In this document: positions 22,472 through 38,779 of the stretch, piece after piece
Numbering within the stretch: the first letter of the stretch is position 1
How the letters are laid out: each line of letters opens with the position of its first letter
IMG/VR virus record: IMGVR_UViG_3300044535_002275
Span: 62,001-126,000 of that record
Length of the DNA: 64,000 bases
Reading direction: 5' to 3' (one strand)
Origin: a virus
Program-made: the position numbers and the translations under genes
The notes under the pieces: model-generated
Seen by the model: the letters and a program-made list of their open reading frames with translations, nothing else
Database searches by the model: none
Told to the model about the DNA's origin: nothing

Positions 22472-22475
22472 AAGT

Positions 22476-22865
22476 TTATTTTGTAGTAGAGTCGCTGAAC
22501 ACGTACACACGTATTGGTGTACCTGACTTTGCGGCACGAGCACTTCTATGATGCCCGTCTAATATATAAAGCCTGCGGTCTTTTTTGTACACCACAGGTA
22601 AATCTTCATATTCGTCAAACAAGGCTCCGTCACTACCGTAGTTGCTGAGCCAGTCTTGTGTGGCAAACAACTGAGCAGGATTTACTGTAGCTACTTGTGG
22701 TTCGACGCCGGCTGCTATCTGTGCTTCCACCGCGTTGTGTAATAGGCCTGCATCTAGATAATCATCTGCTTTTTCAAATTCAGCAGTGCTAGGATCCAAA
22801 TATTGACCTATACGTAAATTGGTGCGCCATATATTGGGGTCTTGAGTAATTTCTGTTATTCTCAT
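22476..22865 (-). CDS. ParB-like nuclease-fold (DGHHR) protein
   Basis: 129 residues. The C-terminal third has LPVVYKKDRRLYILDGHHR followed by SARAAKSG, the DGHHR signature of ParB/sulfiredoxin-like domains. These often occur in small phage proteins that modify or bind nucleotides or DNA. No separate DNA-binding domain is visible. Precedes the cyclase gene by four bases. Confidence 0.65.
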   Translation of the reverse strand: MRITEITQDPNIWRTNLRIGQYLDPSTAEFEKADDYLDAGLLHNAVEAQIAAGVEPQVATVNPAQLFATQDWLSNYGSDGALFDEYEDLPVVYKKDRRLYILDGHHRSARAAKSGTPIRVYVFSDSTTK

Positions 22866-22959: not shown

Positions 22960-23970
22960 TTATTTTGCGATCTTGGACCAAACTTTATTACGAATTTGGT
23001 CGGTTAGCGTGTCAGGCAGTGCTACATAGTCCAGCTCTGATGCCAAGGCTTTGCCGTTCTTGAATGCCCAGTCAAAAAACTTGATGACTTCTGCTGAAGC
23101 TTTTGGGTCAGCGGGCTTGGCATACACTAGAATAAAACTGGCACCAGCAATGGGCCAGCTCTTAGCACCTGTGGCATCAATAATGCTTATGCCCATGCCT
23201 GGCTTACTGAACCAATCAGCATCGGCTGCTGCTGCGGCAAAGGATTCTTCGTTGGGATTTACATAGTGTCCATCACGATTCTGCAATTGAAGATGTTTGA
23301 TGTTGTTCTTTTTAGCGTAGGCATATTCTACATAACCAATGGCGCCAGCAACTCGTCTCACATTAGCAGCTACACCTTCGTTGCCTTTACCGCCAACTGA
23401 ACTGGCTGCGGGCCATTTGACAGCATTGCCTTTGCCAATCTTGTCTGCCCAGTCCTTGGATACTGTAGCAAGATAGTCGGTAAAGTGGTAAGTAGTGCCC
23501 GAACCGTCAGCACGATGTACCACGGTGATATTTTGATTGGGCAACTGCTTGCCGGGATTCAGTGCTGCTATCTTGGCATCATTCCATTTGAGGATGTTGC
23601 CTTGATAAATTTCAGCCAACACTGCACCAGTTAGTCGCAGTTCGCCTGGCTTGAATCCATCCAAATTGGCTATTGGCACCACACCGCCTAAGATAGCTGG
23701 GAATTGCAACAAGCCCAGCTTGTCCAAAGTGTCACCTGCTACTGGAGCATCTGACGCACCAAAGTTTACTGTTTTGTTGGTGATTTGACGAACACCACCA
23801 GAACTACCAATACTTTGATAATTGAATCTTACGCCGGTTTCTTTGTTGTAAACTTCTGCCCACTTGGCATAGATGGGATAGGGGAATGTTGCACCAGCAC
23901 CTGTGATTTGTTGTGCTGATACTGCAAAACTTGATACTGCTAATAATAGTACAGCTACTATTTTTTTCAT
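22960..23970 (-). CDS. pstS: Phosphate-binding periplasmic protein PstS
   Basis: 336 residues, normal for PstS. Signal peptide MKKIVAVLLLAVSSFAVSAQ. Phosphate-ligand regions are GAGATFPYPIYAKW, YQSIGSSGGVRQI, FGASDAP and HRADGSGTTYHF. Captures phosphate for the host PstCAB transporter; phages carry it to keep phosphate flowing under starvation. No pstC, pstA or pstB here. A Pho-box-like site lies 49 bases upstream. Confidence 0.95.
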   Translation of the reverse strand: MKKIVAVLLLAVSSFAVSAQQITGAGATFPYPIYAKWAEVYNKETGVRFNYQSIGSSGGVRQITNKTVNFGASDAPVAGDTLDKLGLLQFPAILGGVVPIANLDGFKPGELRLTGAVLAEIYQGNILKWNDAKIAALNPGKQLPNQNITVVHRADGSGTTYHFTDYLATVSKDWADKIGKGNAVKWPAASSVGGKGNEGVAANVRRVAGAIGYVEYAYAKKNNIKHLQLQNRDGHYVNPNEESFAAAAADADWFSKPGMGISIIDATGAKSWPIAGASFILVYAKPADPKASAEVIKFFDWAFKNGKALASELDYVALPDTLTDQIRNKVWSKIAK

Positions 23971-24411: not shown

Positions 24412-25503
24412 TTATTTTTGTACGATTGTAATTGCAGTGTTACCACCTTGGTTAACTTGTTGTCTAACTTGTACTCCGCCTTGATTTATGTTGATCACAG
24501 CATTGGACTCGGTGCCGACAGTGACTTCGGCAATGTGATCGGTCCTACGATACAAAGTGATCTTGCTTTTGTCATCATTGAAATAGTATCCGATGTTGGT
24601 GGCAGGATTATAATTGGGCAAGATATTTTTTTCAAAGGCACTGCCCAGTGCTGTTTTATTCTGTGCTGATAGTTCGTCTGTTTCGGCCAAGGCCAGGAGA
24701 TCAATGTCTAAATCATTACGATCGATCTCTTTCTTTTCGTCTAGTTCGTTTTTATCCAAGTCCTTGAACGCCAATAAATCCACATCAAGATCGTTTTTAT
24801 CCAACTCAGTCTTGTCCGACCGATACGCAGTTTCTTTAATTTCCACCGGCGGACTTATGATCAACATGTTGTTGATGTTGGCCTGATCGATTGAAATCAC
24901 AGTGGGATTAGATGGAGCAGAGGTCAAACTGTTGACCACAGTGGCTTGATAAGCCACATCCAACAACACACTTCCTGCTTCGTTGGAAACTTCGATAGCA
25001 CCAGTCACACACCCTTTCTTGTCGCAGCTGGGCAATAGCATGACCAAGCTGCGACCCAATTCATCCACCGTCATAGAGAAGTCTGTGCCACGCACTGCTA
25101 CAGTAGCAGTGGGAGTTCGTACGTTGACTGCTTGTGGATTATTTTTAGCAATCTGACCAGACGCATAACGTGCTGTGCCTAGTGCAACTCGCATGGCCAG
25201 CTTGCCTGTTCCTTGCGAAGCGTCGTACACAAAGTCATCTATGACCAGTTTACTTTGCTCAGTTATTTTGACCGTGGTTTTATCTTCGAACGACAAAGTG
25301 ACACGACTCTTGGCAGTGGTCACTGTGTCCTGCATCTCGATTGCGGTGTTGATTGAACTCTCAACACTTTTTTTATTTCTGACAATTTCTGTAGGACCAG
25401 TCTGTTCAGTGACTCGCCCCACAGGAGCTGCAAAATTAGTTGGACTGATTGACAGTAATAGAGTTACTGTTACCAGTTGAAGTAATAGTTGCTTGTTGTA
25501 CAT
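24412..25503 (-). CDS. Exported FecR-domain protein with curlin-like tail
   Basis: 363 residues. Signal peptide at residues 1-25. FecR-like beta domain at about 30-160 (VTLSFEDKTTVKITEQSKL, TPTATVAVRGTDFSM). The middle segment repeats LDKNDLDVDLLAF and IDRNDLDIDLLAL. The C-terminal INQGGVQVRQQVNQGGN resembles curlin units. Secreted FecR-domain proteins of this type are thought to bind glycans or act at the cell surface. The gene begins 68 bases inside the end of the curlin gene in another frame; no later start would keep the signal peptide. Probably part of the curli-type system. Confidence 0.8.
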   Translation of the reverse strand: MYNKQLLLQLVTVTLLLSISPTNFAAPVGRVTEQTGPTEIVRNKKSVESSINTAIEMQDTVTTAKSRVTLSFEDKTTVKITEQSKLVIDDFVYDASQGTGKLAMRVALGTARYASGQIAKNNPQAVNVRTPTATVAVRGTDFSMTVDELGRSLVMLLPSCDKKGCVTGAIEVSNEAGSVLLDVAYQATVVNSLTSAPSNPTVISIDQANINNMLIISPPVEIKETAYRSDKTELDKNDLDVDLLAFKDLDKNELDEKKEIDRNDLDIDLLALAETDELSAQNKTALGSAFEKNILPNYNPATNIGYYFNDDKSKITLYRRTDHIAEVTVGTESNAVININQGGVQVRQQVNQGGNTAITIVQK

Positions 25504-26047
25504 TGGTTCCGCCTTGTGTCAAGCTGATGGTATTGCCACTTAACGCTACTCCGCCAGTGACTGTTATGATTGCTGAGTGCGCACCAGAACCTGACGTGGT
25601 ATGTGTCACTGTGTTCTCATCACCGGTGATCAAGATCTCACTGTACTGAGTAGCAGATGCAACCAAGTTTTGTGTCACTGTGTTGTTGTCACCAGTGACT
25701 TGTTGCTTGATGAAACTGCTGCCGCATGTGGCACTGTTGGCAGTACCGCAATTGATCACCTGTGTGTTGTTGCTGCCGTTGGTGGTCACAGTTGCAGTAA
25801 TTGCAGCGCCGTTGATGATCATGTCCAAGGCATTCGAGCTACCAATTTGATCAATGGTTACTATATTGGCATCGCCTTTGATTATGGAAGGTGTGCCGTC
25901 AGCGCCTATCCTGTTGCTGTTGCCATCCTGTAGTATGGTGATAGCAGCACCATCACCTACCTGTTCTATATAAACATCATTTGCTTGAGCTGTAGGCACC
26001 CAAGCCAGGGCAGCGATTACTGCCATTATTCCAAAACGTTTAAGCAT
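25436..26047 (-). CDS. Curlin-like amyloid subunit
   Basis: 203 residues. Signal peptide ending TAQA. The mature protein is Asn/Thr/Gly/Ser-rich with recurring QxGxxNxxxxxQ-like units (ILQDGNSNRIG, IDQIGSSNALD, QQVTGDNNTVTQN, LTQGGTNVQQATI), the pattern of curlin repeats that stack into fibres outside the cell. AAGGAG upstream. CsgG and CsgF are encoded immediately upstream in the same leftward operon. Confidence 0.8.
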   Translation of the reverse strand: MLKRFGIMAVIAALAWVPTAQANDVYIEQVGDGAAITILQDGNSNRIGADGTPSIIKGDANIVTIDQIGSSNALDMIINGAAITATVTTNGSNNTQVINCGTANSATCGSSFIKQQVTGDNNTVTQNLVASATQYSEILITGDENTVTHTTSGSGAHSAIITVTGGVALSGNTISLTQGGTNVQQATITSTGNSNSITVNQSN

Positions 26048-26066
26048 TTTTTGCTCCTTTTTATTA

Positions 26067-26837
26067 TTATTTTTTGAACCGCCATAAACCTGAACGTTCT
26101 CCGCTCATGATCATTTCATACACAGCCTGCTCAATTGCCACACGTACTGCATAAGTTGTGGGCTCATTCAAGGTTGCACCGTTTTCTAATTCTATGCTTT
26201 TAGTAGCAGAGTCAAAGAATTTAAGTGCGCCCAGAGTATGAGCTGTACTGTATATTGTTTTGGAGATACTGTTGCTGATCAACACTTCTCCTGAGTTGAC
26301 TGATATCAGTCTAATGCTGACTACCACTTCGTCAACTCGATACTGTTGGCTTCCGCCGATGCCTAGTATTCTAGCACCGCTTCCGCCTGTTCTGATGTTG
26401 CTGTCATAACCAATGATGCCACCTTCTATTATGAGTCCAGCCACTATCATGGGCTTGAGAGGTTTGGCATCCTTGCCTTCGTAAATTTCTCGCTGATTAC
26501 GTATCAGCTGACGTTCCTTGATCAAGTTGTCCAGGCCCACACGCTCGACCACACGGAACCAACCCGGCACATCCTTTAGGCTCTTGATCAAGAACACTTC
26601 AGCCCCTTGTGTCACTGCTTTGCTGAACACAGCCAACTTATCGTTGGGTTTCAGCTGTCCTGTCTTGTCAGCAAATCCGTACACTGCCACAGTGACAACA
26701 GGACCATCGAGAGGAGGAATCTTTTCAATGAGATTCACTCGTGGTTTGATCTCCACGGGTTCCTCGCGAGCTGCGCTCATGTGAATCTGAGCACACCCGC
26801 CGACTAAAGCAAGTAGTAAAACGGCTAGGATACGCAT
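26067..26837 (-). CDS. csgG: Curli secretion pore lipoprotein CsgG
   Basis: 256 residues. Signal sequence with lipobox LVGGCAQ. CsgG features: VTVAVYGFADKTGQLKPND, GWFRVVERVGLDNLIKERQ, GLIIEGGIIGYDSN and the conserved YRVDEVVVSIRLI...GEVL. CsgG forms the outer-membrane nonamer that exports curlin. The start at ATG 26837 follows the csgF stop by one base; a TTG alternative lies four codons upstream. Confidence 0.9.
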   Translation of the reverse strand: MRILAVLLLALVGGCAQIHMSAAREEPVEIKPRVNLIEKIPPLDGPVVTVAVYGFADKTGQLKPNDKLAVFSKAVTQGAEVFLIKSLKDVPGWFRVVERVGLDNLIKERQLIRNQREIYEGKDAKPLKPMIVAGLIIEGGIIGYDSNIRTGGSGARILGIGGSQQYRVDEVVVSIRLISVNSGEVLISNSISKTIYSTAHTLGALKFFDSATKSIELENGATLNEPTTYAVRVAIEQAVYEMIMSGERSGLWRFKK

Positions 26838-26838
26838 G

Positions 26839-27288
26839 TTAAAACGCAAAGCTCGCTATTGGTACAACAACTTCAGTTCTATTACCTGTGGTATCTAGTA
26901 TGGTTAGAGTCACCGTGCTGCCATTCTTGAGCCACGTGATGCTGCTGCCTTGAAAGTCCAAGGTGCCGGTGTTCTTGTCTGACTCACCGAACATGTTGTC
27001 GGCCAACTGTTTGCTCAACTGCGCATAGATTCTTGATTCCAAGTTTACAATAAACTTGGCCAAGGTGGTGTTCTTGGCATCACGCTCGGCCTTGTCTCGG
27101 GCTGCTTGTTCAGCATCGTTAATTTTTTGTCGACGTTGTGTTTCTAATTGTTCTATGGTCAACACATGTGCCGAATAGCCCTGGCCACTAAAGGCAGGGC
27201 TAGAAAATTGGTGCACCAATTCGCTGGCCTGTGTACTGCCGCCTACGACCGATAGTGCCAGCATGATTGCTGTCAACCCGGTTCTCAT
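26839..27288 (-). CDS. csgF: Curli assembly factor CsgF
   Basis: 149 residues. Signal peptide MRTGLTAIMLALSVVGGSTQA, then the CsgF head ELVHQFSSPAFSG, which inserts into the CsgG pore. A helical linker rich in Gln/Lys/Ala and a C-terminal beta domain follow (LDFQGSSITWLKNGSTVTL). CsgF couples secretion to fibre nucleation. AGGAG upstream. No csgE homologue is seen nearby. Confidence 0.85.
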   Translation of the reverse strand: MRTGLTAIMLALSVVGGSTQASELVHQFSSPAFSGQGYSAHVLTIEQLETQRRQKINDAEQAARDKAERDAKNTTLAKFIVNLESRIYAQLSKQLADNMFGESDKNTGTLDFQGSSITWLKNGSTVTLTILDTTGNRTEVVVPIASFAF

Positions 27289-27361
27289 TGTAAACGCTCC
27301 TGTTATTTTTTACCTGCTTTATATTTAATCATACCGCGAAATTAGTTATGTACACACAAAG

Positions 27362-27386
27362 AAAAATCCTGCCGAGGCAGGATTTT
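27362..27386 (-). terminator. Rho-independent terminator after the OmpA-like gene
   Basis: Leftward AATCCTGCC/GGCAGGATT stem followed by TTTCTTT. Confidence 0.8.
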
Positions 27387-27409
27387 CTTGTACGCTAAAG
27401 AGTGTACGC

Positions 27410-27958
27410 TTACTTGATTGCAGTGATGACCACTCGTCGGTCGGGTGCCAGGCATGACTTGAGGCGTTCAAAGTTTTTCATTCCAGTACAAAGTTTTGTA
27501 CCTTCGGTTGGTTGTGTTGCTCCAACTCCTTGAGTGACAAACTTGCTCTTGAATCCCGACTTGGCATTCAGATAATCGCCTACCGCACCTGCACGTTGCT
27601 GACTCAATCGAAGATTGTAAGCAGCAGTGCCAATACGATCAGTGTGACCAACCACGGTCACTGTAGAACCTGGAGCAATGGTTGCAGCCAACTGATCCAG
27701 TGCTGCACGACCTACTGATGTAAGTGCTGCTGAATCAAATTCAAACAACACATCACCATTGATAGTGACAGGCGCACGTTCTGCAACAGGATCACATGCC
27801 TTGACTGCGTCAGCAGCGGTATAAGTTCCGGTATGCAAGCAAAGGCCTGAACCTGTACGAACAATCTGACCTGATCCATCTGTTACATATCCTGGAGTGC
27901 CTTGAGCAATGGCCAGGAATGCAACAGCGGATAACATGACGGCTAATAATGCTTTCAT
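27410..27958 (-). CDS. OmpA-like peptidoglycan-binding protein
   Basis: 182 residues. Signal peptide ending AIAQ. A short N-terminal segment of the type seen in Burkholderiales OmpA proteins (VTDGSGQIVRTGSGLC) precedes an OmpA_C domain (VTVVGHTDRIGTAAYNLRLS with the peptidoglycan-binding Asp and Arg). No beta-barrel domain. It would sit in the periplasm attached to the wall. AAAGGA upstream. Likely host-derived. Confidence 0.85.
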   Translation of the reverse strand: MKALLAVMLSAVAFLAIAQGTPGYVTDGSGQIVRTGSGLCLHTGTYTAADAVKACDPVAERAPVTINGDVLFEFDSAALTSVGRAALDQLAATIAPGSTVTVVGHTDRIGTAAYNLRLSQQRAGAVGDYLNAKSGFKSKFVTQGVGATQPTEGTKLCTGMKNFERLKSCLAPDRRVVITAIK

Positions 27959-27972
27959 TGTTATCCTTTAGA

Positions 27973-29145
27973 TTAGAACTGGTGACGCAAGCCAACACCG
28001 ACCACAGTGCTCTTGGCAGTGTCAACAGTGGCCAGGTTATCCATGTAACTCACGTAAGCATACGCATTGGTGCGCTTGGTGAAATCATATGTATAGCCCA
28101 GGTTGTAAGCTGACTGATTCTGTGCATTGTAAACATCTTTCATGTTGGTGTTGGGAGTCAACAAGGTCCAGCTGACCATAACACGGCTTGCGGCATTGAC
28201 GGGGACAGTAGCACCCAGCAGGTAGCTGTTGTAACCCATGTTCTGATCAAAGATCACTTCGCCATTGGCATTGGCCGGATTACCGTTTAAATTAATACCA
28301 GCACCTGTAGCGCCATTGCCCTGACCCAGGATGTAACCACCGCGTGTTTGGCCGTACGCTGCTGACAATTTGGCAACCTTAAGATCATACGCTCCGCCCA
28401 GGTTCCATGAACTGGGATTGCTGGCACTGATAGAACTGGTAGGTGCATAAATCTTGTCATATGACAAGGCAGTATAAACTGGACCATTGGTGTAGTTGGC
28501 ACCTAATGACAACTGACGCACGTTGTTGTTGGTTTCAAAGTTGTAGCCAGTAGAACCTACTCTTGAAACTCTTGCAGCAGCACCATCAATAGCTGTGTTG
28601 CTCATGCCATTGGCAAATGAGTAAGCAGCACCTGCACGGAATCCTGACATCAAAGGTGACTGGTACTTGATGGCATTGCTCATACGCAAAGTATTAGCTG
28701 CACCAAATGCTGCACCAATGTTGGCTTGTCCGAAGCCTTGACTAAACGGATCAATTGCGCCGAAATAGTCAGAGGCTAAGTTGTATTGACGGCCGATACG
28801 AGCCAAGCCCCAGGCGTTGTTTTCCACACCCAGATAAGCCTGACGACCAAACAGCCGGTTGGATTGACCACTAGTGCCATTTCCTAATTCAAATCCGCTT
28901 TCTAAAACAAAAGTAACGCGGTTACCGTTGCCAATGTCTTCAACACCACGCAGACCAAAACGGTTGCCACTTTGTACGCCATATGCAGCACCAAAGTTTG
29001 ATGCAGACGCATCTTGCAAACTCACTGTTTGATAACGAATTCCAGCATCTAGAATACCGTACAGTGTAACAGATGATTGAGCTGTAGCTGCAAAGCTCAG
29101 GCCCATTGCGGCCGTTAGTACTGCTAGTTTATGAGTAACTTTCAT
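27973..29145 (-). CDS. Betaproteobacterial general porin (trimeric 16-strand type)
   Basis: 390 residues. Signal peptide MKVTHKLAVLTAAMGLSFAA; mature start QSSVTLYGILDAGIRYQ, the hallmark of Burkholderiales/Neisseria-type porins. Many alternating beta strands and the C-terminal phenylalanine (RHQF) needed for outer-membrane insertion. Full length. AAGGAG and a good promoter upstream. A phage-borne porin could change uptake or replace the receptor; this is inference. Confidence 0.92.
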   Translation of the reverse strand: MKVTHKLAVLTAAMGLSFAATAQSSVTLYGILDAGIRYQTVSLQDASASNFGAAYGVQSGNRFGLRGVEDIGNGNRVTFVLESGFELGNGTSGQSNRLFGRQAYLGVENNAWGLARIGRQYNLASDYFGAIDPFSQGFGQANIGAAFGAANTLRMSNAIKYQSPLMSGFRAGAAYSFANGMSNTAIDGAAARVSRVGSTGYNFETNNNVRQLSLGANYTNGPVYTALSYDKIYAPTSSISASNPSSWNLGGAYDLKVAKLSAAYGQTRGGYILGQGNGATGAGINLNGNPANANGEVIFDQNMGYNSYLLGATVPVNAASRVMVSWTLLTPNTNMKDVYNAQNQSAYNLGYTYDFTKRTNAYAYVSYMDNLATVDTAKSTVVGVGLRHQF

Positions 29146-29242: not shown

Positions 29243-29267
29243 AGAAAAAAGCCCACCGAAGTGGGCT
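29243..29267 (-). terminator. Rho-independent terminator after the HNH gene
   Basis: AGCCCAC-TTCG-GTGGGCT hairpin followed by TTTTTTCTTT leftward. Confidence 0.9.
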
Positions 29268-29287
29268 TGGTGATTTCTGTTACGAGG

Positions 29288-29683
29288 TCAGATCGAATAC
29301 GTATTGCCTTTGCTCATATTTTCCTTAGCTGGCAAATATTGCAGATTTTCTAAGACATGGAATCCGCTTACTAATTTTCCTCTTAGCGGGATTATATGGT
29401 CGACATGGTATCCTTCGGGACAATTTAGATAGAAGTTTTTAATCGCTTGCTTATCTGCCCAAGCCGGCATTCTTTGCAATCTAACTGCTCGTTCAGTTGC
29501 ACTTTTTAATCTAACTTTATCTCTATTATTTTTTTGCCACCGTCTGTATCGTTCTGACTGAGTTTTGGCATTAGACCGACGTTGAGCTTCTTGTTTACCG
29601 GGCTTGTTTAAATATTTTTGTTGGTAAGCTTTAAAACGTTCTTTTCGTTCTTCTTCGGTTTCTATTATTTTTTTGCGTCCCAT
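29288..29683 (-). CDS. HNH endonuclease
   Basis: 131 residues from ATG 29683 (MGRKKIIETEEERKERF). Basic N-terminal region, then the HNH core YHVDHIIPLRG and GFHVLENLQYLPAKEN. Free-standing HNH genes in phages are often homing endonucleases. It sits alone between two terminators, between the tmRNA and the porin, as a recent insertion would. Confidence 0.85.
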   Translation of the reverse strand: MGRKKIIETEEERKERFKAYQQKYLNKPGKQEAQRRSNAKTQSERYRRWQKNNRDKVRLKSATERAVRLQRMPAWADKQAIKNFYLNCPEGYHVDHIIPLRGKLVSGFHVLENLQYLPAKENMSKGNTYSI

Positions 29684-29714
29684 GATATTATTTATCATCG
29701 TTTGCTAAAAGAAA

Positions 29715-29732
29715 AGCCCGCCGAAGCGGGCT
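29715..29732 (-). terminator. Rho-independent terminator after the tmRNA
   Basis: AGCCCGC-TTCG-GCGGGCT hairpin followed by TTTTCTTTT leftward. Confidence 0.9.
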
Positions 29733-29735
29733 ACT

Positions 29736-30048
29736 ATTTTCTGTTTCGAAGGATAGTTCCTCAATAACGGCTTAAGCGGCCGCTAAAAATAACTCATCAT
29801 TAGCTGCGGTTATTTGGTTGTTTACTTTTAACGACTATCTGTGTCGAGTTGTCCATGCCGTTACTTGTTGCCCAATCGAAACCTGGTCAGCCCCATCAGA
29901 AGCATACTATGGTGAAATAGACTTACAATGTAGAGGTCTTGGCTTACCATTCCTGATCTTTTTACAGATTTTAATATGCTTATGGTGGAGCTGGAGGGAA
30001 TCGAACCCTCGTCTTGAACACTTTTCTCTTTACTTCATACAACAATTC
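29736..30048 (-). ncRNA. ssrA: Circularly permuted (two-piece) tmRNA
   Basis: Read leftward, the acceptor piece comes first: T-arm GAGGGTTCGATTCCCTC and 3' end CCAGCTCCACCA (3' A at 29983). An 88-base intervening segment follows. Then the coding piece starts at 29894 with GGGGCTGACCAGGTTTCGAT, the classic tmRNA 5' end. GGGGCTG pairs with CAGCTCC to rebuild the acceptor stem. The tag frame (29772-29807) reads GCA then ANDELFLAAA-stop. This 3'-before-5' order is the permuted form, processed to two RNAs. tmRNA rescues stalled ribosomes and tags the product. Outer ends are approximate. Confidence 0.92.
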
Positions 30049-30054
30049 TTAAAA

Positions 30055-30210
30055 TCAATCCGGCTGTTTACGAGCATTGAGTTTATCAGATGCATAGGTA
30101 ACCAGCACCCATGGTAGTACAGCATGAATTACTAATGCACCTGCTATCTTTAACGCAAAAAATAAATGCTTGAAATATCCCACGTTGTTTTCTTTCAGAT
30201 GATCAATCAC
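30055..30210 (-). CDS. Small membrane protein (51 aa, DUF6356-like)
   Basis: GTG start with AGGGG upstream; a second GTG three bases earlier is possible. The product has GYFKHLFFALKIAGALVIHA, one membrane helix, then LPWVLVTYASDKLNARK. The (Y/F)F.H...A...AG...HA.LP....YASDK pattern is that of a small uncharacterised membrane family (DUF6356-like, from memory). Its stop lies just before the tmRNA acceptor piece, so they may share a transcript. Confidence 0.6.
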   Translation of the reverse strand: MIDHLKENNVGYFKHLFFALKIAGALVIHAVLPWVLVTYASDKLNARKQPD

Positions 30211-30268: not shown

Positions 30269-30511
30269 TTAAGCATCAGAGTCCTGCGGCGGACGTTCCT
30301 TGCGATCCAATGTGCGTGGCTTTAACAAGTAATCACGCCCGATCAAGCCTGCTTCGATTTCTCGTAGTGCAGTAACTGGCAGATCATTGTTGCATTGAAC
30401 CCTGGGTAACCACCCGCGTTTAAGTTCTCTGACTCTACGCGAAGCAATTAACACCAGGTCGTATTTGTTGCCCACTGCTAAGGCAGCAGCGTCACTGGTA
30501 ATTCTGGCCAT
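30269..30511 (-). CDS. rpoZ: RNA polymerase omega subunit homologue
   Basis: 80 residues. Starts MARITSDAAALAVGNKYDLV, then LIASRRVRELKRG and PVTALREIEAGLIG, matching the conserved omega regions (MARxT..DA...GN(R/K)(F/Y)DLV..A..R.R and TALREI..G). Omega helps assemble and stabilise the beta' subunit of host RNA polymerase. A phage copy could replace host omega and alter polymerase, for example its ppGpp response (inference). AAGGA and a strong promoter upstream. Confidence 0.85.
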   Translation of the reverse strand: MARITSDAAALAVGNKYDLVLIASRRVRELKRGWLPRVQCNNDLPVTALREIEAGLIGRDYLLKPRTLDRKERPPQDSDA

Positions 30512-32391: not shown

Positions 32392-32466
32392 TGGTGCCCC
32401 CACCCGGAATCGAACTGGGATTTGATGATTACAAGTCAACTGTAATAGCCGTTATACTATAGGGGC
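32392..32466 (-). tRNA. tRNA-Thr(TGT)
   Basis: Acceptor GCCCCTA/TGGGGGC, anticodon loop CTTGTAA, T-loop TTCGATT, encoded CCA. One mismatch in the anticodon stem. Confidence 0.9.
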
Positions 32467-32476
32467 GTGAAACTGT

Positions 32477-32683
32477 TTACTCAACTGATTCAACAGCTAC
32501 AACCTGTCCGATGTAGCTTTTTCGACTTTTTACAATCCGAATTCGATTGAGAATTTTTGCTTTAATTTTCTTTTTTCCTTCTTTTTCTAATACAGACTCT
32601 AGTTGACTCACTGTCAATCCACCAAGCCTAATTTTACCAGTTTTGGTTTTGTTTGGATCTCTAACTTGATTACGTTGCGACAT
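32477..32683 (-). CDS. Hypothetical basic protein (68 aa)
   Basis: Strongly basic (KTKTGKIRLGGLTVSQLESV, KKKIKAKILNRIRIVKSRK), starting MSQRNQVRDPNKTKTG. Could bind nucleic acid. AAAGGA upstream. Between tRNA-Thr and tRNA-Ser in the same direction, so probably cotranscribed with the tRNAs. Confidence 0.6.
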   Translation of the reverse strand: MSQRNQVRDPNKTKTGKIRLGGLTVSQLESVLEKEGKKKIKAKILNRIRIVKSRKSYIGQVVAVESVE

Positions 32684-32701
32684 TTTATTCCTTTAAAATT
32701 T

Positions 32702-32789
32702 TGGCGGGTAGTATAGGAGTCGAACCTATCCACCGGTTTCCCAGTGAGGGATTAGCAATCCCTTGCCTTAACCGCTCGGCCAACTACCC
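32702..32789 (-). tRNA. tRNA-Ser(GCT)
   Basis: GGGTAGT/ACTACCC acceptor, loop TTGCTAA, long variable arm, discriminator G, encoded CCA. Confidence 0.93.
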
Positions 32790-32801
32790 AATAATCTTAT
32801 T

Positions 32802-32996
32802 TTATAGCAAATCTTTTAAATTTGCAATCTGCGCTGGACTCAAAACCAATTCGAACTGTGTCTGCACACTTCCGTCTCTACGAGCATGATCCCATTCTGT
32901 TAGGAATCTAATTTGTTTGTGTCCTGCTGGTTTAGCTATGTCTCTGATTTCTAAAATAGTTCGAAATCCGTCGTTGTCATTAATAACTGTTTTCAT
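32802..32996 (-). CDS. Hypothetical small protein (64 aa)
   Basis: MKTVINDNDGFRTILEIRDI; a beta-then-helix composition ending SPAQIANLKDLL. No family recognised. Lies in the leftward tRNA unit. Confidence 0.55.
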   Translation of the reverse strand: MKTVINDNDGFRTILEIRDIAKPAGHKQIRFLTEWDHARRDGSVQTQFELVLSPAQIANLKDLL

Positions 32997-33003
32997 TTTA
33001 ATC

Positions 33004-33453
33004 CTAAGTATTTGCGTCTGTAAATAATTTAGTAAATTCTGGATCCTTGCTAAAGACTCGCACAGATGATGACAAACGAGCTACTAAATGTATTCCAGTT
33101 TCGGAATGTTCTTGGCACCATTCAAACACTTGGTCTTTCACGGGACGATTGGATAGTACCAACAACACATACCGATAGTTTTCAATCGATCTGTTTACTA
33201 AAATAACACCTGACTGATCCGGGCGCATCCATTCGGGTACACGGGTGTTTATTTTCCAGTGACATTTGAATGTTTGGCAGGGCGTTTCTGGTCGGATCAT
33301 GTAGATACCGCAACCTGATTGATTCAAGTAATGACAAGGTTTTCCGGGATAAAATTCGTGTCCGTATGCTTCGCCAGTTAACCAACCTTCACAACACATG
33401 CGGCAACTGCTGCAGGCTCGGTCTACGGACTTTTTACTAAGTATCGGTATCAT
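33004..33453 (-). CDS. YkgJ-type cysteine-cluster protein
   Basis: 149 residues. Eight Cys in the N-terminal half, in the order CSSCRMCCEGW, PCHYL, GCGIY, PCQTFKC, as in YkgJ/UPF0153 zinc- or iron-chelating domains. The C-terminal half is a plain alpha/beta segment. Metal binding is likely; role unknown. Confidence 0.75.
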   Translation of the reverse strand: MIPILSKKSVDRACSSCRMCCEGWLTGEAYGHEFYPGKPCHYLNQSGCGIYMIRPETPCQTFKCHWKINTRVPEWMRPDQSGVILVNRSIENYRYVLLVLSNRPVKDQVFEWCQEHSETGIHLVARLSSSVRVFSKDPEFTKLFTDANT

Positions 33454-33494
33454 CCATTAATTATGCAAAATATATCAGGATGGTAAAATAAAAT

Positions 33495-33571
33495 TGGATG
33501 CAGGGGCTGGATTCGAACCAGCGACCTCCAGGTTATGAGCCTAGCGGGATGACCAACTTCCCTACCCTGCG
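33495..33571 (-). tRNA. tRNA-Met(CAT), initiator-like
   Basis: Loop CTCATAA. Position 1 is C and 72 is A, the unpaired C1-A72 that marks bacterial initiator tRNA. Anticodon stem CTAGG/CCTGG has two of the three usual G-C pairs. Encoded CCA. Confidence 0.8.
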
Positions 33572-33790
33572 ATTGATTGTTCAATGGCCACTTGCGTCCC
33601 CGCTAGCCCCATTCTGAGTTGTCTACCCTGTCGATCCATTTATTTTTCTGGACAGGTTGGCTCCTGCCCTACGGTGTTTTCAAGACGCGGCGGTAATGCC
33701 GCCTTGAGGACTGACCGTATGTACCCTGCTGGTATGGCTGCAGCAATCGCCCCCTATACTTACGAGTAGGGATCCCGGGATTCTAAAAGT
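33572..33790 (-). other. Structured spacer between tRNA-Asp and initiator tRNA
   Basis: A 219-base spacer, more GC-rich than its surroundings, with no convincing gene. Leftward it can fold several hairpins: CCCTA...TAGGG near 33765, TCAAGGCGG...CCGCCGCGTCTTGA at about 33680-33708, and GGGCAGG...CCTGTCC near 33655. It may be a small structured RNA or a processed spacer. Confidence 0.4.
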
Positions 33791-33868
33791 TGGCGACTCG
33801 GACGGGATTCGAACCCGTGATCTCTTGCGTGACAGGCAAGCGTATTAGGCCAACTATACTACCGAGCC
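33791..33868 (-). tRNA. tRNA-Asp(GTC)
   Basis: GGCTCGG acceptor, loop CTGTCAC, T-loop TTCGAAT, discriminator G, encoded CCA. A queuosine-type (GUN) anticodon. Confidence 0.93.
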
Positions 33869-33872
33869 AATT

Positions 33873-33956
33873 TGGTGGAGGTGGTAGGGATCGAACCTAC
33901 CTGGCGTTAGCCCACGAATTTACAGTCCGCTGTCCCACCGTTGGAACATCACCTCC
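33873..33956 (-). tRNA. tRNA-Tyr(GTA)
   Basis: GGAGGTG/CACCTCC acceptor, loop CTGTAAA, long variable arm as in bacterial tRNA-Tyr, encoded CCA. Four bases from tRNA-Asp. Confidence 0.93.
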
Positions 33957-33985
33957 AAAAACTTTTGTGTTGCTATTATAGCAAC

Positions 33986-34100
33986 GCCATATTGAAGCAC
34001 ACTGACTTCCACGGGATGACATCAGACGAATCTGCAACTTCCCCTTCAACGACAGTATCAGAGGGTGGAGTCGAACCACCACAGCGTGCTTCAATATGGC
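33986..34100. repeat. 15-bp inverted repeat spanning a tRNA-like segment (element A)
   Basis: Arms GCCATATTGAAGCAC at 33986-34000 and its exact complement at 34086-34100. ACTGAC follows the first arm, as in three other spacer hairpins of the tRNA region (39201, 39400, 42203). Confidence 0.8.
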
Positions 34101-34150
34101 TCCCCAATCTTGTCACAGTTGTGTGCTACTATCAACTGAGCTATTGGAGA
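34053..34150 (-). other. tRNA-like structured element, identity unresolved
   Basis: Leftward: TCTCCAATAGCTCAGTTGAT looks like a tRNA 5' half with D-arm; GTGACAA resembles an anticodon loop (GAC); GGTGGTTCGACTCCACC is a perfect T-arm. But the acceptor halves do not pair and CCA is missing. Instead TCTCCAAT pairs with ATTGGGGA before the T-arm. Either a degenerate or interrupted tRNA, or another structured RNA. Confidence 0.4.
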
Positions 34151-34192
34151 ATAGTTTGTTTTTAAAGAAAACAAATTACTTACTGTAGTACT

Positions 34193-34221
34193 ATTATAAC
34201 AAAAGTTGATTAACGTGTCAA
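34193..34221 (-). promoter_or_regulatory. Sigma70 promoter for the tRNA block 34.15-32.4 kb
   Basis: TTGACA at 34216-34221, 17-base spacer, TATAAT at 34193-34198. Confidence 0.8.
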
Positions 34222-34229
34222 CTGTGTTG

Positions 34230-34652
34230 TTACATGATTTCTTTGTACAAAGAACCGTTGTATTTTCTCAACGCCTGATCAACATCTTGCTTCAGTAAAG
34301 CAACAACCTCGTCGGCAGATGAATAAATTAACCCTGCTTCTTCCAACGCAGATCGACGTAGCAATTCGCTAGCCTGAGTCCATCCCCAGACCGCACTGTC
34401 GGATCCAAATGCCAACTTAGGCCATCTTGTTTCAATCCAGCTCGACAGATGTTTTAATGCTGTTATAGTATTGGCCGGATGACTGCGAGAAATAGCAGAA
34501 AACCAATCGTTACTTAAAAGAGAAGAAAAAAAAGAACCAGGCTCTAGGCCGTGGATCAAATAACGATACATGGGACTGTAATATTCTGGCTCAACCTCCC
34601 ACTCACTAGCACTTTTTGCCAGCAGTAACTTTGAGTGTATTGTTAGGTTCAT
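34230..34652 (-). CDS. Hypothetical protein (140 aa)
   Basis: MNLTIHSKLLLAKSASEWEV; contains PMYRYLIHGLEPGSFFSSLL and an acidic C-terminal helix (SADEVVALLKQDVDQALRKY). No recognised domain. Cotranscribed with tRNA-Glu and tRNA-Gly. Confidence 0.6.
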   Translation of the reverse strand: MNLTIHSKLLLAKSASEWEVEPEYYSPMYRYLIHGLEPGSFFSSLLSNDWFSAISRSHPANTITALKHLSSWIETRWPKLAFGSDSAVWGWTQASELLRRSALEEAGLIYSSADEVVALLKQDVDQALRKYNGSLYKEIM

Positions 34653-34665
34653 GGTATCAAAAATG

Positions 34666-34740
34666 TGGTACTCCGTAGGGGAGTCGAACCCCTCTTGCAG
34701 GAATGAAAATCCTGAGTCCTAACCGATAGACGAACGGAGC
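34666..34740 (-). tRNA. tRNA-Glu(TTC)
   Basis: GCTCCGT/ACGGAGT acceptor, loop TTTTCAT, T-loop TTCGACT, encoded CCA. Confidence 0.92.
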
Positions 34741-34746
34741 ATTAAG

Positions 34747-34820
34747 TGGAGCAGGGTAAGAGAATCGAACTCTCCGCATCAGCTTGGAAGGCTGAGGTAT
34801 TACCACTATACGAACCCTGC
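34747..34820 (-). tRNA. tRNA-Gly(TCC)
   Basis: GCAGGGT/ACCCTGC acceptor, loop CTTCCAA, discriminator T, encoded CCA. Confidence 0.93.
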
Positions 34821-34840
34821 TTGTTAATTACTATACTGCT

Positions 34841-34869
34841 ATTATAACAACGGACTATTTAGTTGTCAA
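34841..34869 (-). promoter_or_regulatory. Sigma70 promoter for tRNA-Gly/Glu
   Basis: TTGACA at 34864-34869, 17-base spacer, TATAAT at 34841-34846. Confidence 0.8.
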
Positions 34870-34911
34870 TGATTTTCGATGCCTGTTGCATTTCTACAAC
34901 TAAATATTTCT

Positions 34912-35730
34912 ATGATAATATTATTTGGATGCAGTTGGGCAAGAAATGCCTGGGCACACACCAGTCAAGAATCTACATATGGTTATAAGCACTGGAGACT
35001 GCCTGATACCTGGGCAATAAATTCTCCCAACTGGTTGAATTCTTTTTTTACCAAAGACACAGTGGTAAATTTTGCTAGATACGCTAATACCAATGATTGG
35101 ATGATTAGAGATCTTTATCACGCTACCAACACTGTATCAAACTTTCCTGATCGAGTGGATTTCTTAGTGTTTCAAACAGATCCCTTGCGCATATTCGCTC
35201 CCAGACAAGACTACAATGATTACAACATTGTTTGGCCTAATTTTGTAGCTTGGGCCGAAAAGAAACAGTTTGATTGGCAAACTCGCTCATTTGATGATAT
35301 GCTGGAAGTCATTTATAGAGATTATTATCAAAACTTAGTAAGTTTTCAAAGTTCCAGTCAGTATATGAATCCCGGAAAAGATATAAATCTTTGGTTAGTA
35401 GGCGGTGTCAGTCGTGTGCATCCGTGTATCAAGGATTTTGATCTTTGTACAATCATCGATAGCTTAACTGGATTTTTTGGATTTGCCAACGACTGTTGCC
35501 TTGAGAATCGTGCTAGTCTTATTAGCCTCACAAAATTTTGGGGAGATAAGCTAACTGATCCGGCAAAAAAACATGCACTTCGGGAAGCATGGAAACACTA
35601 CGATGACTTATTACAACAGAAGGAAGATTTTTGGGTCGAAAATCAGGAACTCTTTGCTGGCCGGCATACAACCGAAAAAGCCATGCAACAAATCGCCAAA
35701 CACATAGAATCTCAAATAGGATTGGGGTGA
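34912..35730 (+). CDS. SGNH-hydrolase-like protein (272 aa)
   Basis: MIILFGCSWARNAWAHT opens with the hydrophobic strand and GCSW serine block typical of phage SGNH-like proteins. LVFQTDPLR would be the Asn/Asp strand position, and a later catalytic Asp-His pair is not obvious. The start at 34912 is preferred because the strand follows at once; a longer frame from 34879 is possible. The 3' end runs eight bases into the convergent tRNA-His gene. Confidence 0.6.
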   Translation: MIILFGCSWARNAWAHTSQESTYGYKHWRLPDTWAINSPNWLNSFFTKDTVVNFARYANTNDWMIRDLYHATNTVSNFPDRVDFLVFQTDPLRIFAPRQDYNDYNIVWPNFVAWAEKKQFDWQTRSFDDMLEVIYRDYYQNLVSFQSSSQYMNPGKDINLWLVGGVSRVHPCIKDFDLCTIIDSLTGFFGFANDCCLENRASLISLTKFWGDKLTDPAKKHALREAWKHYDDLLQQKEDFWVENQELFAGRHTTEKAMQQIAKHIESQIGLG

Positions 35731-35797
35731 CTAACGGGGTTCGAACCCGTGACGACAGATCCACAATCTGTAGTGTTGCCGCTACACTATAGTCACC
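35723..35797 (-). tRNA. tRNA-His(GTG)
   Basis: Loop TTGTGGA. Extra G at -1 opposite C73, the tRNA-His identity pair; acceptor GTGACTA/TAGTCAC; encoded CCA. Confidence 0.93.
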
Positions 35798-35883
35798 ACT
35801 ATAAAACTAACTAACTTTTCTTTAGTTGAAATCTGCAGCTCTAAATCCATAAATACGTGACAACTATTTTTACAGGAGCTGTT

Positions 35884-36336
35884 ATGTCGAATAAAGACTA
35901 CAAAGAAATGAGTGCAAGCGAAAAGAAAAAAGAAGATTGGATGAATTCAAAATGGCGTCCAATGATGGGTTGGATGTACATGGCAGTGTGTATGGCTGAC
36001 TTTGTGCTGTTTCCAGTTCTCTGGAGCCTAGTACAAGCAGCACACGGCGGTAGCGTACAAACACAGTGGAACCCAATTACACTACAAGGCGCAGGCCTGT
36101 TCCACATGGCCATGGGTGCTATTTTGGGTATTGCAGCATTTGGTCGTACACAAGAAAAGATGGCCGGTGCTAACAATGGCGGAATTGCTGCAGCACCTGC
36201 AGCCAGTTCGTTCTCTGCACCACCAGCAACCAGTTTTAGCGCACCTACCCCTACCCCAGCACCTGCCAGTTTCAACAGCGGCGGAATTGCAGCAGGTAAA
36301 GCTCGCCCGGCTGAATTTGAGCATCCGGCAATTTAA
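35884..36336 (+). CDS. Holin (3-TM holin-like)
   Basis: 150 residues from ATG 35884, with AGGAG upstream. SKWRPMMGWMYMAVCMADFV and LWSLVQAAHGG form two membrane segments. ITLQGAGLFHMAMGAILGIAA is the third, ending FGRTQEKM, the signature layout of phage 3TM holins. An Ala/Pro-rich tail follows. It would puncture the inner membrane at lysis time. The endolysin and spanins follow in order. Confidence 0.82.
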   Translation: MSNKDYKEMSASEKKKEDWMNSKWRPMMGWMYMAVCMADFVLFPVLWSLVQAAHGGSVQTQWNPITLQGAGLFHMAMGAILGIAAFGRTQEKMAGANNGGIAAAPAASSFSAPPATSFSAPTPTPAPASFNSGGIAAGKARPAEFEHPAI

Positions 36337-36349
36337 TAAGGAAAACAAA

Positions 36350-36577
36350 ATGAAATTAATATACTCAACTATTTTAGCACTGAGCCTTGTTGCCGGTGTT
36401 CACGCACAAGACACCAAACCTGCTGCGAACAAAGGCGAAAAGAAAGAAGTCTGCACCGACGTCAAAGACAAGGCTGGTGCTGTGGTCAAGAACAAAGACG
36501 GCACGGTCAAACAAACTTGCAAAACCATCACTGTGCGTAAGAAGTACGAAGGTACTGCAGTTCCCGACAAAAAATAA
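36350..36577 (+). CDS. Small exported Lys-rich protein (75 aa)
   Basis: Signal peptide MKLIYSTILALSLVAGVHAQ, then a lysine-rich mature part with two Cys (EVCTDVKDKAGAVVKNKDG, KQTCKTITVRKKYEG). Lies between holin and endolysin in the lysis operon. It may modulate lysis in the periplasm; this is inference. Confidence 0.65.
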   Translation: MKLIYSTILALSLVAGVHAQDTKPAANKGEKKEVCTDVKDKAGAVVKNKDGTVKQTCKTITVRKKYEGTAVPDKK

Positions 36578-36587
36578 GGAGTACTAG

Positions 36588-37442
36588 ATGGCTTTTAATT
36601 TTAATTTTACTCAACAACAACTAGCGCAGTTAATTCCCGGCAACCCTTACGTAGCACAATGGTATTCTGCACTGAACATGATCTTGCCTGACTACGGAAT
36701 TGATACTGTGCCACGTGTAGCAGCGTTTGTTGCTCAATGTGCGCACGAAAGTGCCAACTTCAAGTTCTTGAAAGAAAACTTGAACTACAAGGCCGAAAGC
36801 CTGATGCGAGTCTGGCCCAGTCGTTTCCCTTCGATAGATGTTGCTCGTCAATATGCCATGCAGCCAGAAAAGATTGCCAATAAGGTCTATGGTGGCCGCA
36901 TGGGCAATGGCACAGAAGAAACCGGTGACGGATGGCGTTACGCCGGCAAAGGTCTTATTCAGTTGACTGGCAAGGACAACTACACACGCTTTGCTGAAAG
37001 TATTGACACCCCAGTGGAAGAAATTCCTGAATACCTACAGACATTTGAAGGTGCTGTGCAAAGTGCCTGTTGGTTCTGGGAAGTCAACAATTTAAATCAG
37101 TGGGCCGATGCCGGCGATATACTAACCTTGACCAAACGCATCAACGGTGGTGTCATTGGCCTGGAAGATCGCAAAAAGCACTATGCACATGCTTTGCATG
37201 TGTTGGGTGGCGATTCAGCACACCATGTTGCAGAAAGTTCTGCCGCTGTCAACACTGCTCAAGTTCTACGACGCGGCAGTCGTGGGGACACTGTGGCTGC
37301 CATGCAGATCAAACTGGGATTGAGCGGAGACGGTGACTTTGGTCCAGCAACAGAACGTGCTCTAATGGGTTGGCAGCGTGAAAACGGATTAGAACCCGAC
37401 GGCGTTGCTGGTCCCGCGACACTAGCCAAATTGTTGGCCTAA
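36588..37442 (+). CDS. GH19 endolysin with C-terminal peptidoglycan-binding domain
   Basis: 284 residues. GH19 (chitinase-like lysozyme) catalytic domain at about 1-200: the glutamate in CAHESANFKFLKE, then YGGRMGNGTEETGDGWRYAG and GLIQLTGKDNYTRF. A PG_binding_1 domain lies at about 220-284 (LRRGSRGDTVAAMQIKLGL, FGPATERALMGWQ). Cleaves the cell-wall glycan backbone. No signal peptide, so it depends on the holin. Confidence 0.93.
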   Translation: MAFNFNFTQQQLAQLIPGNPYVAQWYSALNMILPDYGIDTVPRVAAFVAQCAHESANFKFLKENLNYKAESLMRVWPSRFPSIDVARQYAMQPEKIANKVYGGRMGNGTEETGDGWRYAGKGLIQLTGKDNYTRFAESIDTPVEEIPEYLQTFEGAVQSACWFWEVNNLNQWADAGDILTLTKRINGGVIGLEDRKKHYAHALHVLGGDSAHHVAESSAAVNTAQVLRRGSRGDTVAAMQIKLGLSGDGDFGPATERALMGWQRENGLEPDGVAGPATLAKLLA

Positions 37443-37446
37443 CATC

Positions 37447-37887
37447 ATGTGGCAAATCATGTGGATGCTGGGGTTGATACCAGCCTGGCTATGGCACGTA
37501 TTACTGGGAGTTTCCCTGGTGACCATAGCTGCCACATATTTTCTACGCATGATTCCATTCTTTGGCACAAACGCAATTCAGTTGCGTTTTGTTGCTACAC
37601 TGATATTGATTTTTACTGTCTGGATGGAAGGCGGCATAGCCAACGAAGCCAAGTGGCAACAACGTATTCAAGACTTGGAAGCCCGAGTAGCTGCTGCTGA
37701 AAAGCAGGCTGCTGAAACCAATACCAAAATTGAAACAGTTTATGTTGATCGAGTTCAAGTGGTCAAAGAAATACAATATGTAGTTCGCAAAGATATTGAA
37801 CGTGCTGCTACCGAACTGGATGCCAACTGTCGTGTTTCGCCTCGTGCTATTGAACTATTAAATCAAGCCACAGGTGTTAAGAAATGA
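37447..37887 (+). CDS. i-spanin (Rz-like)
   Basis: 146 residues. Two N-terminal hydrophobic segments (LIPAWLWHVLLGVSLVTIAA and a second near residues 45-58). A periplasmic coiled coil follows (IQDLEARVAAAEKQAAETNT). It overlaps the o-spanin start. Spanins join the inner and outer membranes and fuse them in the last step of lysis. Confidence 0.82.
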   Translation: MWQIMWMLGLIPAWLWHVLLGVSLVTIAATYFLRMIPFFGTNAIQLRFVATLILIFTVWMEGGIANEAKWQQRIQDLEARVAAAEKQAAETNTKIETVYVDRVQVVKEIQYVVRKDIERAATELDANCRVSPRAIELLNQATGVKK

Positions 37888-38141
37888 AATTTATTGTCAT
37901 TGCTGTTTTACTAGTATTGACTGGTTGTGTTGCTCCGGTCAAACGAGAATTCCCTGTTATTCCACCCAGCTTGGAAAAGCCCTGTGGTAATTTATTAGAT
38001 GTTCCAACCACTACCCGACTCAGTAAAGTTCTTGAAGTAGTTACCGAAAACTATGCATTATATCGAGAGTGTCAGATCAAAAATGAAACTTGGCTAGATT
38101 GGTATCAAAAACAAAAGAAGATATTTGATAGTGTAAAATAA
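37884..38141 (+). CDS. o-spanin lipoprotein (Rz1-like)
   Basis: 85 residues. Signal sequence MKFIVIAVLLVLTGC with lipobox LTGC, then a proline-containing segment (REFPVIPPSLEKPCG) and a short helix. ATGA overlap with the i-spanin gene. Outer-membrane partner of the i-spanin. Confidence 0.82.
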   Translation: MKFIVIAVLLVLTGCVAPVKREFPVIPPSLEKPCGNLLDVPTTTRLSKVLEVVTENYALYRECQIKNETWLDWYQKQKKIFDSVK

Positions 38142-38142
38142 T

Positions 38143-38218
38143 TGGTGCGCAGTGACGGGCTCGAACCGCCGACATTCTGCGTGTAAAGCAGACACTCTAC
38201 CAACTGAGCTAACCGCGC
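38143..38218 (-). tRNA. tRNA-Val(TAC)
   Basis: GCGCGGT/ACTGCGC acceptor, loop TTTACAC, T-loop TTCGAGC, encoded CCA. Confidence 0.92.
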
Positions 38219-38224
38219 CGTATT

Positions 38225-38308
38225 TGGTGCTCCAGGTCGGACTCGAACCGACACGCCTTTCGGCACTAGTTCCTAAGACTAGCGTGGCTACCATTACACC
38301 ACCGGAGC
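38225..38308 (-). tRNA. tRNA-Leu(TAG)
   Basis: GCTCCGG acceptor, loop CTTAGGA, long variable arm, encoded CCA. Confidence 0.92.
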
Positions 38309-38338
38309 TTTATAAATATAACTCTTAGAGGAATACTT

Positions 38339-38779
38339 ATGAAAAAATTATTACTTGCATTACTATTTGTACCTGCGATTGCTGTATCTCAAACACCAAA
38401 AGAACCTGTGGGCGTCACATACGATGCTCAAATCATCCGCGTCAGCGACGGCGATACCATTGTGATTGCTGCTGCATTTTTGCCACCGCCCTTGAAGCCT
38501 GAGCTAGCTGTGCGTATCTACGGAGTTGACACTCCGGAAAAAGGACACAGAGCACAATGTCCTCAAGAAGCAGCACGAGCCGAACAAGCATCGGCTTGGA
38601 CCAAACAGCTGATTGCCAGCAGCACCAAGCGTCAAGTGATCTTATACAAGTGGGACAAGTTCGGCGGTCGTGTGATCGGCGACATCATCGTCAACGGTCA
38701 AAGTGTGCGTCGCGGACTTATTGCTAATGGTTTTGCCAGAGAATACTACGGCGAAGCAAAAACCAGCTGGTGTAACTAA
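38339..38779 (+). CDS. Exported staphylococcal-nuclease-like (thermonuclease) protein
   Basis: 146 residues with signal peptide MKKLLLALLFVPAIAVSQ. SNase fold: VSDGDTIVI (metal Asp), VRIYGVDTPEKGH (catalytic Arg and Asp), KWDKFGGRVIGDI (second Arg region) and GLIANGFARE. A secreted Ca-dependent nuclease could degrade host DNA in the periplasm or on lysis. AGAGG upstream. Ends with a three-base overlap against the leftward neighbour. Confidence 0.88.
   Translation: MKKLLLALLFVPAIAVSQTPKEPVGVTYDAQIIRVSDGDTIVIAAAFLPPPLKPELAVRIYGVDTPEKGHRAQCPQEAARAEQASAWTKQLIASSTKRQVILYKWDKFGGRVIGDIIVNGQSVRRGLIANGFAREYYGEAKTSWCN

Follow-up and report, generated by a model that had tools for sequence, protein, structure and literature searches.

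Among the closest described counterparts of the locus analysed here are the mORFs of fungal mitochondria, found in atp6 of Allomyces and in atp6, atp9, cox2 and nad3 of Glomus (PMC3630166). In mORFs, as apparently in the phage element considered below, the endonuclease gene carries a replacement 3' end and the native end is displaced beyond the endonuclease, and GIY-YIG enzymes are among the families involved in both. The targets of mORFs are mitochondrial protein genes, whereas the phage element occupies a non-coding RNA gene and the part that is swapped consists of a proteolysis tag and RNA structure. Islander tyrosine-integrase islands in tmRNA genes (PMC4383910) resemble the phage element in that the gene is split and restored and a displaced fragment is left behind; unlike these islands, the phage element has no integrase, measures only ~0.5 kb and encodes a homing-type nuclease, and, since it is inserted at the tag start, the tag itself is replaced. 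Phages are also familiar as carriers of free-standing homing endonucleases, encoded by small, intron-less genes of the GIY-YIG or EndoVII/HNH type, as with T4 Seg/Mob (PMC2988022) and the EndoVII-type F-CphI (PMC6083498), but here such a gene lies inside a split tmRNA gene and brings a replacement gene end with it.

Two-piece tmRNA itself is already known from phages, where 53 of the 133 unique tmRNA structures reported are of this kind (PMC9004378); as a permuted tmRNA pattern scan of viral contigs (IMG/VR) gave at least 120 matches, phage permuted tmRNA is not rare. The OM43 phage Melnitz also has a circularly permuted ssrA in its genome, which is of alphaproteobacterial type and associated with a glutamine riboswitch (PMC9004378), whereas the gene described here is of beta type, encodes AANDELFLAAA and is followed by an HNH gene, beyond which lies a displaced 3' end. 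The new part is this endonuclease and displaced 3' end downstream of the tmRNA. No literature on a mechanism that swaps tmRNA tags was found in a search largely not covering subscription journals, nor was a mORF-type element in tmRNA reported in the searchable papers.

The stretch of DNA analysed (the window) is 64,000 nucleotides long and corresponds to positions 62001-126000 of a 159,510-bp IMG/VR virus record. It carries a complete circularly permuted tmRNA gene of betaproteobacterial type on the minus strand and, given the comparisons set out below, it is very probable that the tag and 3' end of this apparently intact phage tmRNA have been replaced by a small homing-endonuclease element. 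The features of the locus, in the order of transcription, are as follows.

29983..30046, minus strand: 3' (acceptor) part of the tRNA-like domain, with P2 strand, T-arm and CAGCUCC-ACCA; CCA is encoded, its last base being 29983, and the 5' limit is approximate
29895..29982, minus strand: intervening (pre-tmRNA) spacer, 88 nt
29808..29894, minus strand: 5' piece from GGGGCUG (mature 5' end 29894) to the resume codon
29772..29807, minus strand: tag reading frame AANDELFLAAA-stop (ARAGORN)
29733..29771, minus strand: intact, putatively element-borne, tmRNA 3' end after the tag
29715..29732, minus strand: terminator hairpin of the apparently restored tmRNA gene
29695..29705, minus strand: GCAAACGATGA, a second copy of the tag start, kept before the HNH ORF in L170, L172 and L173
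29288-29698, minus strand: HNH/endonuclease VII-like ORF of 136 aa, proposed to encode a homing endonuclease (phrog_1035, E 5e-13)
29251..29287, minus strand: apparent displaced old tmRNA 3' end CCTCGTAACAGAAATCACCAAGCCCACTTCGGTGGGC with its terminator (hairpin at 29268-29249), leading without a break to the porin gene, as it does in L003

ARAGORN calls the permuted tmRNA at 29681-30075 on the minus strand with the tag AANDELFLAAA*, and two Rfam models match over their full length, tmRNA_permuted (RF04321, 30044-29772, 102.8 bits, E 6.4e-19, cut-off 47 bits) and beta_tmRNA (RF01850, 30086-29710, 101.7 bits, E 8.5e-30, cut-off 84 bits), the latter being the clan winner. The acceptor half comes before the 5' half, and the two halves re-create the acceptor stem over the spacer: GGGGCUG (29894-29888) and CAGCUCC (29993-29987) form seven of seven pairs, including the G3-U70 alanine identity pair, and the T-stem forms five of five. 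An earlier note, made from the letters alone, had proposed a phage-encoded two-piece tmRNA with an 88-base spacer and a re-formed acceptor stem, and had suggested a covariance-model search; the virus record, the two models and the mapped ends bear it out. Its reading of the tag as ANDELFLAAA holds for the C-terminal part, but the encoded tag has 11 codons (GCA GCU AAU GAU GAG UUA UUU UUA GCG GCC GCU UAA, 29807-29772), with an extra Ala codon (GCU after GCA) compared with most relatives, and the gene lies on the minus strand. The tag frame is open, with a resume codon and a hydrophobic C-terminus of the degron type. Among 49 distinct acceptor/T-arm sequences from fetched loci, pairs 4-6 of the acceptor stem occur in several compensatory types, and G3-U70 is constant, but many of these loci had been retrieved with a pattern that required U70. 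No SmpB was found in the 159,510-bp virus record, so that host SmpB would be needed, and the phage tmRNA presumably works with it.

NDELFLAAA is the tag end in nine other viral contigs too. Two loci, L126 and L128, have flanking genes collinear with those of the window and a tmRNA in the same orientation with the tag ANDELFLAAA and a much shorter spacer, which indicates that the acceptor stem and the C-terminus of the tag are kept and the spacer is free to vary; the conservation in related phages that the earlier note had looked to is thus found in these syntenic relatives. The T-loop in L126 (9161-9492) and L128 (5314-5645) reads GGCAGAG instead of UUCRANU, with the T-stem still paired at five of five positions and Rfam scores for L126 of 133-138 bits, and the T-loop of the L252 tmRNA is likewise unusual. 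The spacers between the two tmRNA pieces hold ORFs in L003 (3974-4414), where a frame of 81 aa starts in the spacer, crosses the 5' piece and continues in frame into the tag, and in L272 (2024-2525), where a 62-aa ORF ends at the mature 5' end. No close DNA relative of the virus was found among isolated phages for the 24 kb tested, the matches listed being short and almost all tRNA genes.

The tmRNA gene is embedded among other genes of the virus. On its 5' side and on the same strand (30269-30511, minus) lies an 80-aa ORF matching RNA polymerase Rpb6/omega (PF01192, 43.8 bits, cut-off 26), and beyond its 3' side an outer-membrane block occupies 24412-29145 on the minus strand:

27973-29145, minus strand: porin
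27410-27958, minus strand: OmpA domain
26839-27288, minus strand: CsgF
26067-26849, minus strand: CsgG
25436-26047, minus strand: curlin-repeat protein
24412-25503, minus strand: FecR domain

Curli genes, here csgG and csgF, are present in Melnitz and pelagimyophages as well (PMC9004378). The window also encodes a CHASE2 sensor and adenylate/guanylate cyclase domain protein (20420-22543, minus strand) with phage homologues (phrog_35576, E 1e-192), a PstS-like phosphate-binding protein (22960-23970, minus strand) and a TctA-family tricarboxylate transporter (12058-13386, plus strand; PF01970). Twenty-seven tRNA genes with small ORFs interleaved, all on the minus strand, lie at 32392-43772, and no tRNA gene was found outside this array in the 159.5-kb record. 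Elsewhere in the record (146001-159510; L139 8435-10738) an ATP-dependent protease is encoded (phrog_4871, E 1e-235), in the same phage that makes its own degradation tag. Sigma-70-type promoter matches on the minus strand at 30569-30541 (5' of the omega-like gene) and 29225-29197 (5' of the porin gene), both 12/12, are matches to the consensus only, and promoter matches of this type are overall no more frequent than in shuffled sequence.

The displaced 3' end, which the earlier note overlooked, was recognised at 29287-29251, beyond the HNH ORF. L003 contains a phage tmRNA with the tag ANEDSFVAERLAA and a porin gene directly after it. The window is homologous to L003 along the body of the tmRNA as far as the vicinity of the resume codon; a second match (90% over ~550 nt) starts with the 3' end and terminator of the tmRNA and continues into the porin gene; between the two matches the window has its tag, 3' end, terminator (29732-29715), GCAAACGATGA and the HNH ORF. 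L003 can be taken as an empty allele with the qualification that its own tag differs from that of the window. The HNH ORF has the intact tag with its 3' end on one side and the displaced tmRNA 3' end on the other, and is flanked by two tmRNA terminators. The relic is short (37 nt) and scores weakly against a general 3'-end profile (E 0.39), so its identity depends mainly on the continuity with L003, where the equivalent stretch stands at the end of the beta_tmRNA match (3949-4389). The HNH ORF is the only gene of the inserted segment, its PHROG matches are endonucleases, and no integrase was found there; an integrase-borne genomic island was rejected for this reason.

Relatives of the HNH protein were located at 80 loci, and the best six by score (L170-L175) all lie directly after a tmRNA 3' end, the tmRNAs of L170 and L173 being called by ARAGORN and Rfam and the other HNH-linked ones read by eye. 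As in the window, GCAAACGAYGATAAATA comes after the terminator in L170, L172 and L173, and the last part of the HNH frame of L170 is CCTAGCGGCATAAACTC, which resembles an old tag end; a relic is visible in two of the seven HNH cases (the window and L170). In five inspected lower-ranked relatives (L176, L184, L189, L190 and L199) no tmRNA was adjacent, and the HNH relatives in isolated phages mostly overlap hypothetical proteins, several beside tgt-type genes. The HNH-linked tmRNA-like 3' end in L171, just 5' of position 3001, has an apparently very long tag (...DDVEEAIAA*) and received no ARAGORN call.

A GIY-YIG family is found at the same position. Two loci discovered solely through the common tag ANDELFLAAA, L124 and L129, have a convergent GIY-YIG-like ORF after the tmRNA, followed by a second tag and 3' region, and all 17 relatives of this protein with at least 64% identity (L250-L266) lie after a permuted phage tmRNA in convergent orientation. 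Fifteen of these tmRNAs were identified by ARAGORN and those of L252 and L253 by profile (L252 confirmed by Rfam); the 17 are not all independent and represent, by sequence, about ten distinct elements. The gene lies 62-80 nt after the tag stop in the ARAGORN-called loci, and 176 nt after it in L034, which belongs to an unselected set. Beyond the endonuclease, a second tag and 3' region was detected by profile (E <1e-9) in L250-L254, L258-L264 and L033; no second copy reached this threshold in L255-L257, and short relics are readable in these three and in L265. Among the 113 tmRNA loci of the unselected scan, a GIY-YIG gene directly follows the tag in three (L033, L034 and L047) and an HNH gene in none. 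Identity between the GIY-YIG proteins and phage genes that carry an annotation as homing or HNH endonuclease is 36-41%, no relative above ~41% identity was found among isolated phages, and in the two isolated-phage records inspected the relatives lie beside structural genes. Pfam scores of both the HNH and the GIY-YIG proteins are below cut-offs. No GIY-YIG gene of this kind was found in 300 genomes of the order of Azohydromonas caseinilytica, in a search that had no positive control, and all endonuclease-tmRNA cases are metagenomic contigs. Second tmRNA 3' segments also lie past the intact gene, with neither an HNH nor a GIY-YIG gene, in L021 (5188-5242), where the segment is preceded by a T-arm-like sequence, and in L068 (8839-8891).

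At one locus, alleles in several states could be compared by means of a shared downstream gene. L272 and L273 are empty, with the tag ANDSKFALAA and no endonuclease; L270 and L271 are occupied, with the tag ANDELFLAAA, a GIY-YIG gene and, displaced, the old tag with its 3' end, the insertion being ~490 bp with 15-bp overlapping homology at the tag start; L274 and L275 have the tag ANDEAFLMAA and a GIY-type 3' end without endonuclease. These three states fit an invasion followed by loss of the endonuclease that leaves the swapped tag in place, and they, as well as the apparently intact restored gene, the displaced end, both family-wide links between endonuclease and tmRNA and the joint movement of the GIY-YIG gene and the 3' end, can be read directly in the sequences compared.

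These observations bear on the simplest alternative, that the window holds an ordinary phage permuted tmRNA acquired in its entirety from a betaproteobacterial host, beside an HNH gene that is there by chance, as such genes are throughout phage genomes. The Rfam beta type is what it would lead one to expect, permuted tmRNA occurs in many phages (at least 120 matches; PMC9004378), and HNH genes are common, most relatives of the one in the window lying away from tmRNA. However, the displaced 3' end in the window, the position of the six closest HNH relatives and of 17 out of 17 GIY-YIG relatives at tmRNA, and the existence of empty and occupied alleles make this alternative very improbable. The earlier note had likewise suggested capture from a host; the gene is of beta type, but whole capture was rejected as a sufficient account, since the tag and 3' end form a separate module that moves with the endonuclease.

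The movement of this module is apparent from the uneven conservation of the GIY-loaded genes: among L250, L254 and L258, identity is 85-87% over the 75 nt that follow the tag and 47-62% over the 110 nt that precede it, showing that the 3' end travels with the endonuclease. The same comparison addresses the proposal that the tmRNA 3' end was first duplicated in tandem, through replication slippage or recombination, and that endonucleases later settled in the spare copy. Direct repeats do flank the endonuclease, and the second 3' segment of L068 occurs without either endonuclease; against this, a single gene has an intact and a displaced copy that are very unlike each other, and its intact 3' end is similar to the counterpart in other endonuclease-bearing genes (85-87%), which argues that the new end came from outside together with the endonuclease. 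The statement that empty alleles never occur with a single copy is contradicted by L272/L273, at one locus. Duplication before invasion is accordingly judged very improbable.

Replacement by a homing element, followed by loss of the endonuclease, would also explain the LAAA tags of endonuclease-free genes. The same tag peptide occurs without endonuclease in L125, L127, L126, L128, L131 and L132. In L125, L127, L131 and L132 the 3' end resembles the GIY-borne one (83% identity to L250 for L125 and 74% for L132), from which we infer descent from the same element. A weaker case for such descent can be made for L126 and L128, the 3' end of L126 being closer to that of the HNH-linked L173 (66%).

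The new tag also appears to be encoded differently from the old one. The motif GCATTRGC, common in ALAA-type tags, occurs in 43 of 89 endonuclease-free and in none of nine GIY-loaded tmRNAs (Fisher p 0.004, in a small test with the motif picked after inspection and relatedness uncorrected), and GTTYGCATT is kept in most displaced copies. GCATTRGC is absent from the HNH-linked tag of the window and present in the HNH-linked L173. It is plausible from these patterns that the recoded tag gives immunity to cutting.

ClpX needs the terminal Ala-Ala of the tag, and LAAA keeps it. The chromosome of Azohydromonas caseinilytica carries a tmRNA, flanked by metabolic genes, that encodes ANDERFLAAA, and no other permuted tmRNA was found in the assembly; LAAA is therefore probably a working degron, and the idea of a phage-only tag was rejected. 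The different recognition by ClpXP that the earlier note had envisaged for LAAA is, on the same grounds, not required. In a permuted tmRNA search of the order of this bacterium, there were four strong matches in 150 genomes, and most of the weaker ones fetched were one-piece. The LAAA tag of the window is probably element-borne.

The third alternative, that the nuclease genes are domesticated helpers of phage tmRNA, for instance in regulation or in the processing of the two-piece precursor, and are kept adjacent by selection, draws on the constant spacing of the GIY-YIG gene after the tag, but is highly improbable given the rarity of these genes at unselected tmRNA loci (GIY-YIG in 3/113, HNH in 0/113), the intact appearance of alleles without nuclease, and the displaced ends and swapped tags that it leaves unexplained.

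In the preferred reading, replacement by a homing element, an endonuclease (HNH/EndoVII-like in the window and of the unrelated GIY-YIG family elsewhere) would cut, within the conserved tag region, the tmRNA gene carried by a co-infecting phage. Repair would copy in the element at the tag start, that is, a complete alternative tag and 3' end followed by the endonuclease gene. This would immediately restore the gene, now with a new tag, and leave the old tag and its 3' end further downstream as a relic. As the new tag would be encoded differently, the restored gene would no longer be cut; consistent with restoration, restored genes, including that of the window, still score as full-length tmRNA (Rfam). 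The endonuclease and relic could later be lost, with the swapped tag (for example LAAA or LMAA) remaining as a scar. The cleavage site, homing itself and immunity by recoding are what we infer from the arrangement of the alleles. A far broader proposal, which we regard as rather unlikely in its full extent, is that homing endonucleases are a main engine of phage tmRNA tag evolution, with two unrelated families cutting the conserved ALAA-type tag and each carrying a recoded, cut-proof one, and with host ssrA open to cutting too. If this were true, the enzyme could cut host ssrA, because betaproteobacterial ssrA has a similar tag sequence, and the phage would provide a tmRNA resistant to it in exchange; selfish DNA and the control of ribosome rescue by the phage would then coincide.

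The empty, occupied and endonuclease-lost alleles make cleavage and immunity directly testable. The mORF principle, known for protein genes of mitochondria, would then also apply to a structured RNA gene in phages. Lineages differ in their tmRNA tags, and selfish endonucleases at the tag offer a sequence-level mechanism for this variation; the tag of a phage tmRNA may record invasion by an element, and not the origin of the gene in a host.
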